32,413 nt of DNA from Dehalococcoidia bacterium (GTDB lineage: Bacteria > Chloroflexota > Dehalococcoidia > SM23-28-2), in assembly GCA_020356025.1 (NCBI GenBank), contig CP070630.1, positions 1,899,868 to 1,932,280 of the forward strand, in the 5' to 3' direction. A program made the position numbers and the translations under genes. The notes beneath the pieces are model-generated. The model saw only the letters and a program-made list of their open reading frames with translations. It did not search any database and was not told where the DNA came from. Below, piece after piece: positions 4,016 to 10,816 of this stretch; the first letter of the stretch is position 1; every line of letters starts with the position of its first letter.

Positions 4016-5077
4016 TTAACCTGCTTCGCCAAGAGATGGTCTCGGCGCCTCGGAGTCGGTGTCGCGTGCCCGGGCGTCGGCCGCCCGCTCCGCCGCGGCG
4101 CACAACTTGGGCAGCAAAGACAGCACACGCTCCACCTCATCGTCGCTCAATCCCTGGTATAGCTCGTTGGCAAAACTGTTGGCTGCTCCTAAGCTCTCCA
4201 GCACCTTGTGGTTGCCTTGCTCTGTTATCTCTGCCAGCATAGTGCTGCTAGCCCGGCTCCCGCCCCACCTCCTGACGAAACCGGCCCGCTCCACTGCGCA
4301 CAGGACTGACCCCACCCTTTCCTGATGCAAGCCGGTGATGCGGGCGATATCGTCTTCTGCCACGCTGTCGCCTGCCTCTGCCAGGATGGCCAGGACGTGC
4401 AGTTGCGGTACCGTAAGACTCAGGCTGTGAGACTTCCTTCTCCATATTCTGTCGGCGTGATTGGACCACTCGGCGGCTCGCAACCACGCCGCCAGCCCCC
4501 AGGTGCGCGGGCGGCTATGCGACCCGGACACCAGTGTGCCAGTGAGAGTCTGTACTGTCCCTGCACCCTTACGCGTGCCGTATCGGCGGTCTTGAGATAC
4601 TTCCCTTTCATCCGTTCCGGCGTATGCTACCACCTTCCGCACCTTGGCCCGCATGAATTCTGTGCCTTCTCTCCCTCCCGGTTCCATGACCTCGCGTATG
4701 AACTCGAACATCGCAGGCGCAACGCTATCCAGCAGCCGCTGGCCGCCCTCTTCCATCCGTACGAGAACCTTGCGGCGGTCTTTCTGCTGATGCGAGCGCG
4801 TCACCAGCCCCCGCTCCTCGAGCTTGTCCACGGCTCGTCTCAGGCGATCCGTCTCGAAGAGGGTCGCGCGCGTGATCTGTCCAACGGGGAGGGCATCACC
4901 TGCGTTGGCGAGGCAGATCAGCACGACTAGCTCCTCGTTCGACAGCTCGAACGGTTGCAGGATTGCGTCTACAGCCTGGGAGAGCAAATTGAAGAGGCGA
5001 CGGACGGTGGTCCAGGCGTCCACTCCACTCCGCCCGCGAAATCTGCCCTGCTGGCTCGGCAAACCGCGGTCGTGCAT
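4016..5077 (-). CDS. Tandem MarR-like winged-helix regulator (two HTH domains in one chain)
   Basis: A 353-residue protein with two MarR-like modules. The first (about 21-150) has LSNEELVVLICLANAGDALP, then a recognition-helix region ATLFETDRLRRAVDKLEERG and a wing with SHQQKDRRKVLVRM. The second (about 190-335) has LTVPQLHVLAILAEAGDSV, then HQERVGSVLCAVERAGFVRR. MarR proteins normally carry one domain in ~150 residues and dimerise, so this looks like a fused pseudo-dimer. The second wing lacks the usual DxR motif (it reads WGGSRASSTML). I chose the ATG at 5077 because GGGAGGTGG (5084-5092) stands 6 bases upstream. The frame is open to 5227, but that ATG overlaps the -10 box of a good promoter. 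Targets may be the larA-ABM genes downstream or its own promoter. Ligand unknown. Confidence 0.8.
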   Translation of the reverse strand: MHDRGLPSQQGRFRGRSGVDAWTTVRRLFNLLSQAVDAILQPFELSNEELVVLICLANAGDALPVGQITRATLFETDRLRRAVDKLEERGLVTRSHQQKDRRKVLVRMEEGGQRLLDSVAPAMFEFIREVMEPGGREGTEFMRAKVRKVVAYAGTDEREVSQDRRYGTRKGAGTVQTLTGTLVSGSHSRPRTWGLAAWLRAAEWSNHADRIWRRKSHSLSLTVPQLHVLAILAEAGDSVAEDDIARITGLHQERVGSVLCAVERAGFVRRWGGSRASSTMLAEITEQGNHKVLESLGAANSFANELYQGLSDDEVERVLSLLPKLCAAAERAADARARDTDSEAPRPSLGEAG

Positions 5078-5218
5078 CTGGCTCCACCTCCCCGGCTGTG
5101 GAGCACGCATGAGTAAGCACTGCGCTGACGCCGCTAGGCCTGCACCCACCAGAGGCCGGACTGTGGGGGTCAGGGCGCCATGCGACACGCCCACTGGTGC
5201 AGGCGGATCGCTGGTGAC

Positions 5219-5249
5219 ATTGTACATAATGCGTAGATAGTTGGCAACT
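5219..5249 (-). promoter_or_regulatory. Promoter of the tandem MarR gene with an overlapping palindrome
   Basis: On the minus strand, a -35 box TTGCCA (5247-5242) and a -10 box TACAAT (5224-5219) are separated by exactly 17 bases. The palindrome AGTTGGCAACT (5239-5249) overlaps the -35 box and is a plausible operator for autorepression. The predicted transcript would begin near 5212, leaving a leader of roughly 135 bases before the ATG at 5077. I see no structured regulatory RNA in that leader. Confidence 0.65.
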
Positions 5250-6150: not shown

Positions 6151-6179
6151 TTGACACCATTTGTGGGCCTTGCTACGAT
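6151..6179 (+). promoter_or_regulatory. Promoter of the beta-oxidation gene cluster
   Basis: A perfect -35 box TTGACA (6151-6156) lies 17 bases from a -10 box TACGAT (6174-6179). Transcription would start near 6186, leaving a very short leader of about 14 bases before the ATG at 6200. This rules out the in-frame TTG at 6161, which lies inside the promoter. Confidence 0.75.
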
Positions 6180-6199: not shown

Positions 6200-6976
6200 A
6201 TGCCCTATCAGATCATCAGGCTCTCGAAGCGCGACGCTATCGCCTACCTCGACTTGCAGCGTCCCGAGCAGGGAAACTGTATCGACGGCCAGTTGCTGCA
6301 AGGGCTGGCGGACGCCTGCGCCGAGATAAACGACGACCCCCAGGTGCGGGTGGCCATCCTCAGCGGGGGCGACGCCCCTGTCTTTTCCCTGGGCTGGGAC
6401 ACGTCACTGCTGGTCGCAGAAGAGGAGCCCACTCGCCGCCTGGAGTTCCTGGGCTGTGCTTTCGATTGCCTGCCCCAGCTCTCGCGACCGGTCATCTGCG
6501 CCATCAACGGCGATGCCATCAGTGCCGGCCTGGAGCTGGCTCTGGCCTGCGACGTTCGTCTGGCCTGCGCTGAGGCCCGCTTCGCCCTGCCCGAGACCTC
6601 CTGGGGCTTGATACCCATGGGCGGGGGCAGTCAGCGCCTGGGCCGCATCGTTGGGCGGGGCAAAGCCCTGGAGCTGATCCTCACCGCGGAGGCCATCGAC
6701 GCCCAGGAGGCCCATCGCATCGGCCTGGTGAGGCGGGTGGTGCCGCGCGATAGGCTGATGGCCGAAGCCACGGCCTTGGCCGAGCGCATCGCCGCGCGCG
6801 GGCCGATTGCTGTGCGTTACGCCAAGGAGGCGGTGAGCAAGGGCCTGGACATGACCCTGGAGCAGGCTCTACGCTTCGAGACAGACTTGACGATAATCCT
6901 TCAGACCACCGAGGATCGAGCGGAGGGCGTGCGTGCCTTTCTGGACAAGCGGCCGCCGCAGTTCCACGGACGATAG
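6200..6976 (+). CDS. Enoyl-CoA hydratase/isomerase family protein (crotonase fold), copy 1
   Basis: A 258-residue crotonase-fold protein. The two acidic residues used for water addition in enoyl-CoA hydratases are kept as Glu112 (SAGLELALACD) and Glu132 (ALPETSWGLIP). The oxyanion-hole segments are VFSLGWD (61-67) and INGDAISAG (102-110). The first of these is divergent from the usual AGAD, so the substrate or reaction may differ from plain hydration. The ATG at 6200 is chosen because a near-consensus promoter ends at 6179 and GGAAG lies just upstream. It is paralogous to the hydratase at 8450-9235, most clearly at the C-terminus, where both share RYAKEAV and GLDM and end with PPQF or APQF. 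It is the first gene of the fatty-acid cluster. Confidence 0.88.
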   Translation: MPYQIIRLSKRDAIAYLDLQRPEQGNCIDGQLLQGLADACAEINDDPQVRVAILSGGDAPVFSLGWDTSLLVAEEEPTRRLEFLGCAFDCLPQLSRPVICAINGDAISAGLELALACDVRLACAEARFALPETSWGLIPMGGGSQRLGRIVGRGKALELILTAEAIDAQEAHRIGLVRRVVPRDRLMAEATALAERIAARGPIAVRYAKEAVSKGLDMTLEQALRFETDLTIILQTTEDRAEGVRAFLDKRPPQFHGR

Positions 6977-6991
6977 GAGCGCGAAGGGAGT

Positions 6992-7102
6992 ATGCAGGTC
7001 ATCCTGAAGACAGGCGAGACCATGCGTGCCCTCATGTCCCTCATCGTCTCACAGGTTAGGGAGGAAGCCTCTCGCGGGTCTAGAAGAGGCCGCCGATGTT
7101 GA
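6992..7102 (+). CDS. Candidate small ORF (36 residues) upstream of the nuclease-like gene
   Basis: An ATG at 6992 opens a 36-codon frame ending in TGA at 7100-7102. A purine-rich GAAGGGAG run precedes it, but the spacing to the ATG is short. The peptide starts MQVILKTGETMRALMSL and ends in a basic tail, SRGSRRGRRC. The frame overlaps the start of the nuclease-like gene, including a TGATG junction with that gene's third codon. It could be a leader peptide, a small partner protein, or the remnant of a longer gene broken when the module arrived. I do not recognise it and it may not be translated. Confidence 0.3.
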   Translation: MQVILKTGETMRALMSLIVSQVREEASRGSRRGRRC

Positions 7103-7845
7103 TGGCACAGCTTCGCGGCAAGCTGCCGACGGACGTTTGGCTGGGATCCGAAGACCTGCTCACCAGTGCGGTTTTCGGTACTCTTAAGAACCTACCAGCT
7201 TCGGCAACTGCCGAACTCCTGTCCAGGGCTCAGCCCCTAGAGGGTTCAACACCGCTACTGCTGTCCGCCCCACTGCACTGGCACTTCTGGCCATGGTGGG
7301 ACGTGTGCGAGCCTGACGTGGTGGTCGAAGACGAGGAAAACCTGTGCATCATCGAGGCCAAACTCTACTCTGACTTTGGGGAGGACGCAACGGCGGGCAG
7401 TCAACTTCGACGAGAGTGGAACGACGGTTTCCGGCGGGCCCAGCAGGTGGGAAAGCGGCTTTGGCTAGTGACCTTGACCAATCATGCAAGTTTTCCCGAG
7501 GAAGCAATCCGGCGCCAGCTGGCGCGTGCTGGTTCTGAGTCGTCGCGCGTCTGTTGGCTCAGTTGGTCTGAAATCGGCCGCTTTCTGGATGGTTTGGGAG
7601 ACGAGCTGGCGGGTGGATGGAGAGAGGATCTGCTTGAGCTGCTCTCACGAATGGGGCTGGCTCCATTTGACGGCTTCGGCGAAATCCTCAGCTACTCAGC
7701 TTTGATACCAACTAGTTTGCCTTGGACCGAGCGGCTCCCCCTGGGTGAGGAGAAACTCCAAGCCGTCGGCTTTGGTCCGGCGCTCTTGGCAGCCCGCGAG
7801 TGTAGCCAGAGAGGAGGTGCTCCGTGGCGGCTCAAACTGACGTAG
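7096..7845 (+). CDS. PD-(D/E)XK nuclease-superfamily-like protein
   Basis: A 249-residue protein of no family I can name. It carries a clear PD-(D/E)XK signature: Pro73-Asp74 in CEPDVVVEDEE, then Glu87-x-Lys89 in LCIIEAKL at the end of the next strand, with Gln103 in QLRREW as the usual downstream helix residue and Glu19-Asp20 (GSEDLLTSAVFG) as a possible first acidic motif. This metal-binding core is shared by restriction, repair and phage-defence nucleases. The ATG at 7096 follows AGAGG (7085-7089) by 6 bases. Among its first 60 codons 23 end in A or T, against 8-9 of 60 in the flanking hydratase genes, which suggests lateral acquisition. The next gene overlaps it by 22 bases behind a strong Shine-Dalgarno, so the two are probably made together. 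Confidence 0.6.
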   Translation: MLMAQLRGKLPTDVWLGSEDLLTSAVFGTLKNLPASATAELLSRAQPLEGSTPLLLSAPLHWHFWPWWDVCEPDVVVEDEENLCIIEAKLYSDFGEDATAGSQLRREWNDGFRRAQQVGKRLWLVTLTNHASFPEEAIRRQLARAGSESSRVCWLSWSEIGRFLDGLGDELAGGWREDLLELLSRMGLAPFDGFGEILSYSALIPTSLPWTERLPLGEEKLQAVGFGPALLAARECSQRGGAPWRLKLT

Positions 7846-8453
7846 CTGAGGAGAGTCCAGGCGCGATGCTCGCCCGGCTACTAGTTGGGCAGCGCACGTT
7901 CTTGGAAAACGTCTACTCCCTGGTGCGCTTCTTGGAAGCCGAAGTCACCAAACGTGGATGGGACCTCATAAAGAATGGAGGCTATGGTGTAACGCGGAAC
8001 GGGATGGGACGTAGGCTTACGAGTTTCGTAGACTGGGCCGTCAGCCAGGTCGGAATCGCCTTTGTCCGTCCGGGCCAGGCGCAGCTTGTCCAGGGTGTCA
8101 CTAACACCCAGATTCCCCCCGAGGGGCTTGAAGTCCTAGTGTTTCAAGTCAGATGCCTGGACAAAGCTCCGGCGGAGCCGGTCATGTGGCATGCCAAGCT
8201 CCTGGTGGAGCCCAAAGGATCAACCAAGCCCAAGAAATGGGAGGACTATCAGTCGACCGTATTCAATAGGTTAGAACCGGTACCGCGGCCGGATGAAGCA
8301 ACATCGGGCGACATTAAGCCAGGCGAAGTGCCGCTTTCCGGCACCGCTATCATCTTCACAGGCCGTTATGGAGAAGTCCCAATAGCCGGGCTTCTGACCC
8401 AGGAAGACGTCATTTCCCAACTAGTTGAGCCAGCTTTAGGGGAATACGCATGA
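7824..8453 (+). CDS. Unrecognised protein, partner of the nuclease-like gene
   Basis: A 209-residue soluble protein with no signal peptide, membrane segment or family I recognise. It starts with GTG at 7824, inside the end of the nuclease-like gene, after a strong AGGAGG Shine-Dalgarno (7812-7817). The N-terminal third looks helical (LLVGQRTFLENVYSLVRFLE). The rest alternates hydrophobic strands (GLEVLVFQVRCLD; PLSGTAIIFTGRYGEVPIAGL) with a basic, proline-containing stretch (KGSTKPKKWEDY). Of its first 60 codons 22 end in A or T, matching the nuclease gene and unlike the neighbours. Its stop overlaps the next hydratase start as ATGA. The coupling to a nuclease-like gene suggests an accessory, sensor or inhibitor role, but that is only context. 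Confidence 0.6.
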   Translation: MAAQTDVAEESPGAMLARLLVGQRTFLENVYSLVRFLEAEVTKRGWDLIKNGGYGVTRNGMGRRLTSFVDWAVSQVGIAFVRPGQAQLVQGVTNTQIPPEGLEVLVFQVRCLDKAPAEPVMWHAKLLVEPKGSTKPKKWEDYQSTVFNRLEPVPRPDEATSGDIKPGEVPLSGTAIIFTGRYGEVPIAGLLTQEDVISQLVEPALGEYA

Positions 8454-9235
8454 CCGCCTCTGAGCCCGTTCTCTACGAGAAGGACGGTGGCATCGCCCGG
8501 GTCACCCTGAACCGGCCCGAGGTCCTCAACGCTATGGACATGGAGATGCGGGACGAGTTGTGGCAGGTTCTCCACGCCTTGCAGGATGACCCCGATGTGG
8601 CGGTGGCCATCTTCAAAGGGGCGGGAGAGCGGGCCTTCTCCGCCGGCGCCGATATCAGCGAGTTCGGCACAGCCCCTTCGGTGGTCGAAGCACGGCGGGC
8701 GCGGCGAGAGCGCGACCTCTGGGGCTACATGCTGGCCATCGAGAAGCCCCTCATCGCTGCCATCCACGGCTTCGCCCTGGGGGCCGGCCTCGAGCTGAGC
8801 ATGTGCTGCGACCTGCGCATCGCCGCCGAGGGCGCTCGCCTGGGCCTGCCGGAGGTCAGCCTGGCCTACATCCCCTCCGCTGGAGGGACCCAGCTCCTTC
8901 CCCGCACCGTCAGCCCAGGCCTGGCCATGGGCCTCATACTATCGGGCGATGACATCGGTGCCGAGGAGGCCTTACGTATCGGGCTGGTGCAGCGAGTGGT
9001 GCCCCGCCAGCGCCTCTACGCCGAGGCCGAGGCCCTGGCCCGCCAGCTAATGACGCGCGGCCCGCTGGCTCTGCGATACGCCAAGGAGGCAGTGACCCAG
9101 GGCCTGGACATGCCCCTGGCCGAGGGTCTGGCCCTGGAGGCCCGCCTCGCCCGCTTGGTCATGGCCACCGGCGACGCCCGCGAGGGGCTGAGGGCACAGC
9201 GAGAGGGCAGAGCGCCCCAATTCCTGGGGGTGTAG
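8450..9235 (+). CDS. Enoyl-CoA hydratase/isomerase family protein (crotonase fold), copy 2
   Basis: A 261-residue crotonase with more canonical motifs than its upstream paralogue. The oxyanion-hole segment is FSAGADISEF (63-72), followed by HGFALGAGLELSMCCD with Glu115, and LPEVSLAYIPSAGGTQ with Glu135. Both catalytic glutamates are present, so 2-enoyl-CoA hydration is the expected reaction in cytoplasmic beta-oxidation. The ATG overlaps the stop of the unrecognised partner gene (ATGA), implying translational coupling across the boundary of the foreign module. Its own codon use is typical of the chromosome (GC-ending in about 51 of the first 60 codons). An acyl-CoA synthetase follows after 24 bases. 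Confidence 0.92.
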   Translation: MTASEPVLYEKDGGIARVTLNRPEVLNAMDMEMRDELWQVLHALQDDPDVAVAIFKGAGERAFSAGADISEFGTAPSVVEARRARRERDLWGYMLAIEKPLIAAIHGFALGAGLELSMCCDLRIAAEGARLGLPEVSLAYIPSAGGTQLLPRTVSPGLAMGLILSGDDIGAEEALRIGLVQRVVPRQRLYAEAEALARQLMTRGPLALRYAKEAVTQGLDMPLAEGLALEARLARLVMATGDAREGLRAQREGRAPQFLGV

Positions 9236-9259: not shown

Positions 9260-10816
9260 ATGAATACTGCTGAATTCCTGACCATCAGCGCCTCCATCGT
9301 GCCTGAGCGCGAAGCGCTGGTCTGCAACGGTACCCGTCTTACCTACCTGGAGGTGCAGGAGCGGGTCAATCGCCTGGTCAACGCCCTCATGGATCTGGGG
9401 GTCGAGCGTGGTCACAAGGTGGCTGTCATGGCCCTCAACTCGCACCACTACATCGAGACCTACTACGCCTGTGCCAAGCTCGGGGCAGTGTTGGTTCCCC
9501 TCAACTATCGGGCCAAGCGGGAAGAGTTGACCTACATGGTGAACAATTCCGAGGCCTCGATCCTCTTCGTGGGAGAGCGCTATCTGGAACTTATCGCCTC
9601 CATACGGCCGGAACTGAGAGGCATCCGCCACTTCATCTGCTACGATGCCCGTCCCCAGGGGATGCAGAACTACGAGGACGTCATCGCCAGATGCGAACTG
9701 GAGGAGGTCTTCGTCGAGGTCGATGACAACGACCCCACCGTCCTCCTGTATACCAGCGGCACCACTGCCCTGCCCAAGGGCGTCGTCCTCACCTACCTCA
9801 GCCTCTCGGTATACGTCACCAATACTGTCGAGCCCGCCAACCCAGAGACGCACGATGTCATGATGCTGTCGGTGCCTGTCTACCACGTGGCAGGAGCCAC
9901 CGCCATCATGTCGTCCATCTGGGGAGGCCGTACCTTGGTGGTGCTGCCGCAGTTCGAACCCCACGCCTGGCTTGAGGCAGTGCACCAGGAGAAGGTCACC
10001 CACAGCTTCGTGGTGCCCACCATGCTCAAGCGAATCATGGACGAGCCCGACTTCGGCAAGTACGACCTCAGTTCCCTCAAGCTTCTGGCCTACGGGGCCG
10101 CCCCCATGCCATACGAAGTGATCCGCAAGGCCGTGGATGTGTTCAAGTGCGGCCTGATGAACGCCTACGGCCAGACCGAGAGCACCTCCACCATCACCTA
10201 CCTTGGCCCCGAGGATCACGTCATTGAGGGCACAGAGGAGGAGAAGCAGACAAAGCTGGAGCGCCTGAAGTCGGTGGGGCGGTCGATGGAGGATGTGGAC
10301 ATTGGCATCATGGATCCCGAGGGCAACATCCTGCCAGCCGGTCAGGAGGGTGAGATCGTGGCCAGGGGAGCCCGCCTGATGACCGGCTACTGGAAGCGCG
10401 ACGAGGAGACGGCCAACACCCTGGTCGATGGCTGGCTCCATACCGGTGATGTCGGCTGGATGGACGAGGGCGGCTATCTGTTCATCACCGGTCGCACAAA
10501 GGACCTGATCATACGGGGAGGCGAGAACATCTCGCCCGGCGAGATCGAGGCTGTCCTGCAACAGCACCCCAAGATCGAAGATGCGGCCGTCATCGGCGTG
10601 CCCGATGTTGAGTGGGGCGAGGAGGTGAAGGCCATCGTCCAGCTCAAGCCGGGGGAGACAGCCACCGCCGGGGAGATTATTCATTACACCAGGAACTGCC
10701 TGGCCAGCTTCAAGGCGCCGAGATACGTGGCGTTTGTGGATGAACTGCCCCGCAACTATCTGGGCAAGGTGCTGAAGACGGACCTGCGTAAGCAGCACGG
10801 CACGCCCACGCCCTAG
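9260..10816 (+). CDS. AMP-forming acyl-CoA synthetase (fatty-acid--CoA ligase)
   Basis: A 518-residue class I adenylate-forming enzyme that activates a carboxylic acid to its acyl-adenylate and then to acyl-CoA. All core motifs are present: the phosphate-binding loop YTSGTTALPKGV (164-175), NAYGQTES in the active site, GWLHTGDVGWMDEGGYLFI, the hinge region GRTKDLIIRGGENISPGEIE, and the C-terminal catalytic lysine in NYLGKVLKTDLR (Lys503). Chain-length preference cannot be read. The ATG follows a purine-rich GGGGGGAAG. It sits last in the run with the two hydratases, so it probably supplies their acyl-CoA substrate. The cluster ends before a new promoter at 10825. Confidence 0.93.
   Translation: MNTAEFLTISASIVPEREALVCNGTRLTYLEVQERVNRLVNALMDLGVERGHKVAVMALNSHHYIETYYACAKLGAVLVPLNYRAKREELTYMVNNSEASILFVGERYLELIASIRPELRGIRHFICYDARPQGMQNYEDVIARCELEEVFVEVDDNDPTVLLYTSGTTALPKGVVLTYLSLSVYVTNTVEPANPETHDVMMLSVPVYHVAGATAIMSSIWGGRTLVVLPQFEPHAWLEAVHQEKVTHSFVVPTMLKRIMDEPDFGKYDLSSLKLLAYGAAPMPYEVIRKAVDVFKCGLMNAYGQTESTSTITYLGPEDHVIEGTEEEKQTKLERLKSVGRSMEDVDIGIMDPEGNILPAGQEGEIVARGARLMTGYWKRDEETANTLVDGWLHTGDVGWMDEGGYLFITGRTKDLIIRGGENISPGEIEAVLQQHPKIEDAAVIGVPDVEWGEEVKAIVQLKPGETATAGEIIHYTRNCLASFKAPRYVAFVDELPRNYLGKVLKTDLRKQHGTPTP

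Follow-up and report, generated by a model that had tools for sequence, protein, structure and literature searches.

The window, a 32,413-nucleotide stretch of contig CP070630.1 from a Dehalococcoidia bacterium, contains a beta-oxidation operon in which two overlapping genes, encoding a predicted nuclease and a partner protein, are found between two paralogous enoyl-CoA hydratases, ECH1 and ECH2, that are 44% identical. The features of this region are listed below.

6200–6976, forward strand: ECH1 (enoyl-CoA hydratase 1), left flank (Pfam ECH_1, E 9e-59)
6990–8449, forward strand: block missing from both congeners, delimited by the end and resumption of homology to genomes G001 and G002
6992–7102, forward strand: 36-codon ORF, truncated N-terminal remnant of small gene A (match to the gene-A profile)
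7096–7845, forward strand: nuclease of 249 residues, ATG start, assigned to the PD-(D/E)XK proteins and the PDC-M15A family (PADLOC, alignment, AlphaFold2 and Foldseek)
7824–8453, forward strand: putative partner subunit of 209 residues, beginning at a GTG within the nuclease gene, without a family match (alignment and model)
8450–9235, forward strand: ECH2 (enoyl-CoA hydratase 2), right flank (Pfam ECH_1, E 3e-63)
9260–10816, forward strand: acyl-CoA/fatty-acid ligase (AMP-binding enzyme) of the host operon (Pfam AMP-binding, E 4e-88)

The ORFs at 7096–7845 and 7824–8453 confirm the arrangement described in a previous, sequence-only reading of this DNA, namely two overlapping genes between paralogous hydratases, the last stop of which overlaps the next hydratase start. 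The nuclease and partner genes overlap by 22 nt, and the TGA of the partner gene overlaps the ATG of ECH2 as ATGA (8450–8453). The same reading had placed the start of the module at 6992; this position is instead the start of a different ORF, of 36 codons and in another frame, and the nuclease gene begins at 7096. The longest ORF for ECH1 begins with a TTG at 6161, which lies inside a promoter-like site (6151–6179), and the ATG at 6200 is more likely to be the start. This site, ahead of ECH1, is the only promoter-like site found on the sense strand, and none was found inside the module; therefore, read-through transcription of the module is likely. The immediate neighbors of the module in the window, the two hydratases and the ligase, are all metabolic. 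Elsewhere in the window, a 403-residue protein encoded on the reverse strand (4016–5227) appears by eye to combine two MarR-like regulator domains in a single chain.

The codon usage of the pair was compared with that of its surroundings. Among the first 60 codons, 23 end in A or T in the nuclease gene and 22 in the partner gene, compared with 9 in ECH2 and 7–10 in ECH1, depending on the start chosen (Fisher p = 6e-5), which reproduces counts previously made by hand. When 204 genes of 150–400 residues sampled across the same genome were used as a reference, the GC3 values of the pair (0.64 and 0.615) corresponded to the 12.7th and 9.3rd percentiles, and the codon-usage deviations ranked within the top 5.4% and top 2.5%, respectively. 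The flanking hydratases have GC3 values of 0.83 and 0.86 and, together with the ligase, display codon use typical for the genome. The codon use of the pair is atypical for this genome, without being extreme.

Both available congeners lack the block. Their hydratase genes are adjacent and nearly touching, separated by unrelated stretches of only about 17 and 45 bp, so that the pair does not show the presence at the same place in all close relatives that simple vertical descent would predict. Homology to G001 stops at position 6989 and restarts by 8474, and homology to G002 stops at 6984 and restarts at 8458. The flanks themselves are well conserved, with 93% and 88% identity to the congeners over the last 300 bases of ECH1, and 88–91% identity for the ECH2 protein. 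No target-site duplication was found, as judged by the lack of shared words of at least 8 bp at the two junctions.

Most other genomes of the order contain one or two small genes between the same hydratase pair. Small gene A encodes about 86 residues, beginning MQVVLETDEAWSLMS..., and small gene B about 79 residues, beginning MKLELDQEE...; neither has a match in Pfam. These two genes, which resemble each other, are located between ECH1 and ECH2 in loci L094, L096–L106, L108 and L109; they are conserved across the order, and are missing or truncated in the genus of the window. A profile constructed from 12 gene-A proteins ranked the peptide encoded at 6992 first of 796 window peptides, with an E-value of 0.002 and a next best value of 2.4, and the offset of this ORF behind ECH1 is similar to that of gene A in other members of the order. 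The profile match identifies the 36-codon ORF as the truncated, N-terminal beginning of gene A. A search for small gene B in genomes G000–G003, which had no positive control, gave no match. This arrangement is most simply explained by replacement of the remainder of gene A and the whole of gene B by the module on the lineage leading to this genome.

The nuclease matches five PADLOC models, all of which are PDC-M15A (best E 2.8e-14), and four other members of the class also match PDC-M15A. No match was obtained in Pfam, NCBIfam or PHROG, and a sequence search of the PDB gave no meaningful match to any solved structure. An alignment of 41 nuclease homologues, which are about 30% identical, contains eleven invariant positions (E19, D20, T23, S24, W65, D74, E87, K89, Q103, T128 and W157). 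The catalytic D + E-x-K motif (D74 and E87-x-K89), plus E19 and Q103, is kept in 41 of 41 sequences; D74, E87-x-K89 and Q103 had already been assigned correctly in the sequence-only reading. In three loci (L026:8001-8840, L057:7962-8756 and L056:1100-2010), the nuclease gene is seemingly split by a frame change, attributable to either assembly error or decay.

The AlphaFold2 model of the nuclease has a pLDDT of 84. The best Foldseek matches to this model are endonucleases, in agreement with the presence of a PD-(D/E)XK core, and include R2 REL endonuclease, the BspD6I small subunit, EcoO109I and McrC, with E-values from 1.6e-4 to 1e-2 and probabilities up to 1.0. The TM-scores are modest, about 0.3, and the fold match is therefore limited to the core. 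On the basis of its conserved motif and modeled fold, the nuclease is assigned to the PD-(D/E)XK superfamily with a restriction-endonuclease-like core, and it is a putative metal-dependent endonuclease with a presumed cutting activity and target. It shares the core fold and the active-site pattern with the four proteins named above; in contrast to them, it has a different partner, and no NTPase, reverse transcriptase or recognition domain was seen here.

The partner has no family match in Pfam, NCBIfam, PHROG or PADLOC. A single-sequence search of the genome contigs with the partner also gave no match, and its relatives were reached only through the nuclease profile. The partner model (pLDDT 84.5, pTM 0.83) consists of a 32-residue N-terminal helix, a beta domain and a C-terminal helix. 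A fold search with this model against the PDB and viral libraries gave no match, and the fold may be new. Sequence matches in the PDB to designed coiled coils were discarded as irrelevant, since they reflect the N-terminal helix only. The best conserved positions in a 37-row alignment of partners (W71, P119, a leucine at 187, and P203) are hydrophobic or structural, and the same alignment contains no conserved polar catalytic set. No recognized DNA-binding domain was found in the partner, which is predicted to be a non-catalytic subunit.

A search of genome contigs with the nuclease profile identified 50 loci distributed over about a dozen phyla, including two archaeal lineages. The pairing of the two genes put forward earlier holds in this set: a partner homologue adjoins the nuclease in nearly all of the 50 loci, often with an overlap of 4–50 nt. 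In three loci (L041:245-1618, L054:8001-9362 and L046:8001-9512), a single fused protein of 453–503 residues comprises both nuclease and partner. The nuclease and partner distances are correlated, with a Mantel r of 0.86 (p < 2.1e-4, 34 loci), which arises mostly through close relatives, as r is only 0.23 among distant pairs. Insertion between paralogous genes was rejected as a general rule for the module, as L004–L006 and most other loci have other contexts. In L002 (78-3439), the module is also found between two similar genes, which are EthD-like. In L004, an ORF encoding a GIY-YIG protein (116-697) overlaps the end of the partner gene.

The closest relative of the nuclease (56% identical, L008) belongs to another class, being encoded in an Anaerolinea genome. 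The nuclease gave no match in both congeners, in the other family member, or in 21 of 21 other order members searched, and is present in about 2% of the class. The nuclease tree mixes phyla, including archaea, and requires several changes of phylum label. The phylum-mixing tree and the empty site in the congeners indicate horizontal spread. Thus, the description of the block as foreign is supported by its absence from the congeners, by a nearest relative in another class, and by a patchy tree over phyla. At the sensitivity of the searches made, plasmids and viral contigs yielded no nuclease relatives.

The neighborhoods of the related loci are varied, and many module neighbors are metabolic. 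In L008, an OLD nuclease gene (PADLOC Old, 6e-100) immediately precedes the module. In L056, it is located just upstream of a BREX locus, where a small ORF, which we take to be BrxF-like, is followed by BrxC at full score. OLD and BREX are occasional neighbors of relatives; they have no gene in common with the module, which is not part of them. A pooled PADLOC scan found 155 families in 101 neighboring genes versus 95 in a control of 101 genes, matched for length and drawn from some of these genomes, with both sets dominated by a few proteins. L008 and L056 are thus clear individual cases, whereas the pooled counts of neighbors and control are not distinguishable.

The candidate system PDC-M15 of PADLOC-DB 2 consists of PDC-M15A and PDC-M15B, the latter represented by a 211-position model. 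PDCs are candidates found by guilt-by-embedding, and validation is pending for most of them (PMC12988326). A literature search found no paper naming PDC-M15. The nuclease is a clear member of PDC-M15A, and the PDC-M15 layout, two adjacent co-directional genes with the nuclease first, is present here, with a second gene of about 200 residues that follows and overlaps the nuclease gene, as in L059, L060 and L061. The earlier description of the module as a candidate undescribed system is not supported in that form, since its nuclease is already the PADLOC-DB candidate PDC-M15A and is already paired with a PDC-M15B of similar size. In contrast, none of the 37 partners is matched by the PDC-M15B model in a PADLOC scan, and the true PDC-M15 nucleases are located on their own long branch of the tree. 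The model of the PDC-M15B second gene, PDLC04460, gave no match in 5 and 11 carrier genomes.

Comparison of the partner with PDC-M15B profiles gave a collinear alignment that spans 143 columns and scores 27.2, for which the HHsearch probability is only 17%. In 150 column shuffles, the score was 11.8 ± 2.2 and never exceeded 25.1, and the reversed control scored 17.6. The PDC-M15B profile was built from three sequences only, and an earlier profile comparison using two sequences was not significant. From these profile scores, the partner is probably a very remote homologue of PDC-M15B. Since the nuclease is PDC-M15A and the partner is caught by no PADLOC model, the arrangement corresponds to a diverged variant, and a diverged variant of PDC-M15 is the best reading of the module. 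It is rather doubtful that the partner instead represents an independent family with a fold absent from the PDB, in which case the pair and its fusions would constitute a distinct anti-phage nuclease system that is present in many phyla, including archaea, and overlooked by current detection tools.

The most likely function of the module is defence, which can be considered fairly probable. The intact active site, the predicted non-catalytic partner that is fused to the nuclease in some lineages, the patchy horizontal distribution and the occasional OLD and BREX neighbors all fit an anti-phage module. The explanation that we favor, with moderate confidence, is a mobile, horizontally acquired two-subunit nuclease module of PDC-M15 type, whose partner recognizes or gates the nuclease against invading DNA. 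According to this model, the module would have been acquired horizontally and landed in the beta-oxidation operon in place of the small-gene pair, where transcription together with its neighbors and translational coupling to them are probable. The partner would bind the nuclease and recognize its target or gate its activity, and the nuclease would cut invading DNA, most likely that of phage, or, once triggered, nucleic acid generally. Both the physical complex of nuclease and partner and the anti-phage role are presumed here.

The main rival to this explanation, which partly overlaps the defence reading and is judged unlikely, is a toxin-antitoxin pair in which the nuclease is the toxin and the overlapping partner the antitoxin, acting in stabilization or abortive defence. 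Two small overlapping genes with coupled translation and a patchy distribution would be expected of such a pair, and the partner lacks catalytic residues; however, the natural fusions are more easily reconciled with a stable enzyme than with an antitoxin that can separate, and the partner, which is close to the nuclease in size, has no recognized DNA-binding domain. The fold similarity to the BspD6I small subunit, EcoO109I, McrC and R2 REL endonuclease would also agree with a restriction-like or mobile-element endonuclease, with the partner as a DNA-binding specificity subunit, that acts on any DNA that is foreign or unmodified, or aids its own spread. This is improbable, as no methyltransferase, recombinase or transposase was identified directly beside the module in the window, the two junctions share no words of 8 bp or more, and the insertion contexts in relatives are unrelated; neither restriction-modification nor homing is therefore supported. 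A housekeeping enzyme of DNA repair or processing, or a gene pair adapted to the host metabolic operon, would account for the location of the module inside a metabolic operon with which it is coupled, and for the metabolic neighbors of several relatives. Such a role is very improbable for a module whose nuclease is unmatched in the closest genomes searched, from the congeners through the family to the order, rare in the class, and scattered over many phyla.

The mobile nuclease module favored here belongs to a coherent nuclease-plus-partner family, the second gene of which is invisible to the libraries scanned. The fusions and the invariant active site provide direct handles for biochemistry. 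Moreover, this candidate defence module is located inside a metabolic operon rather than in a defence island, and island-based searches would overlook such modules.
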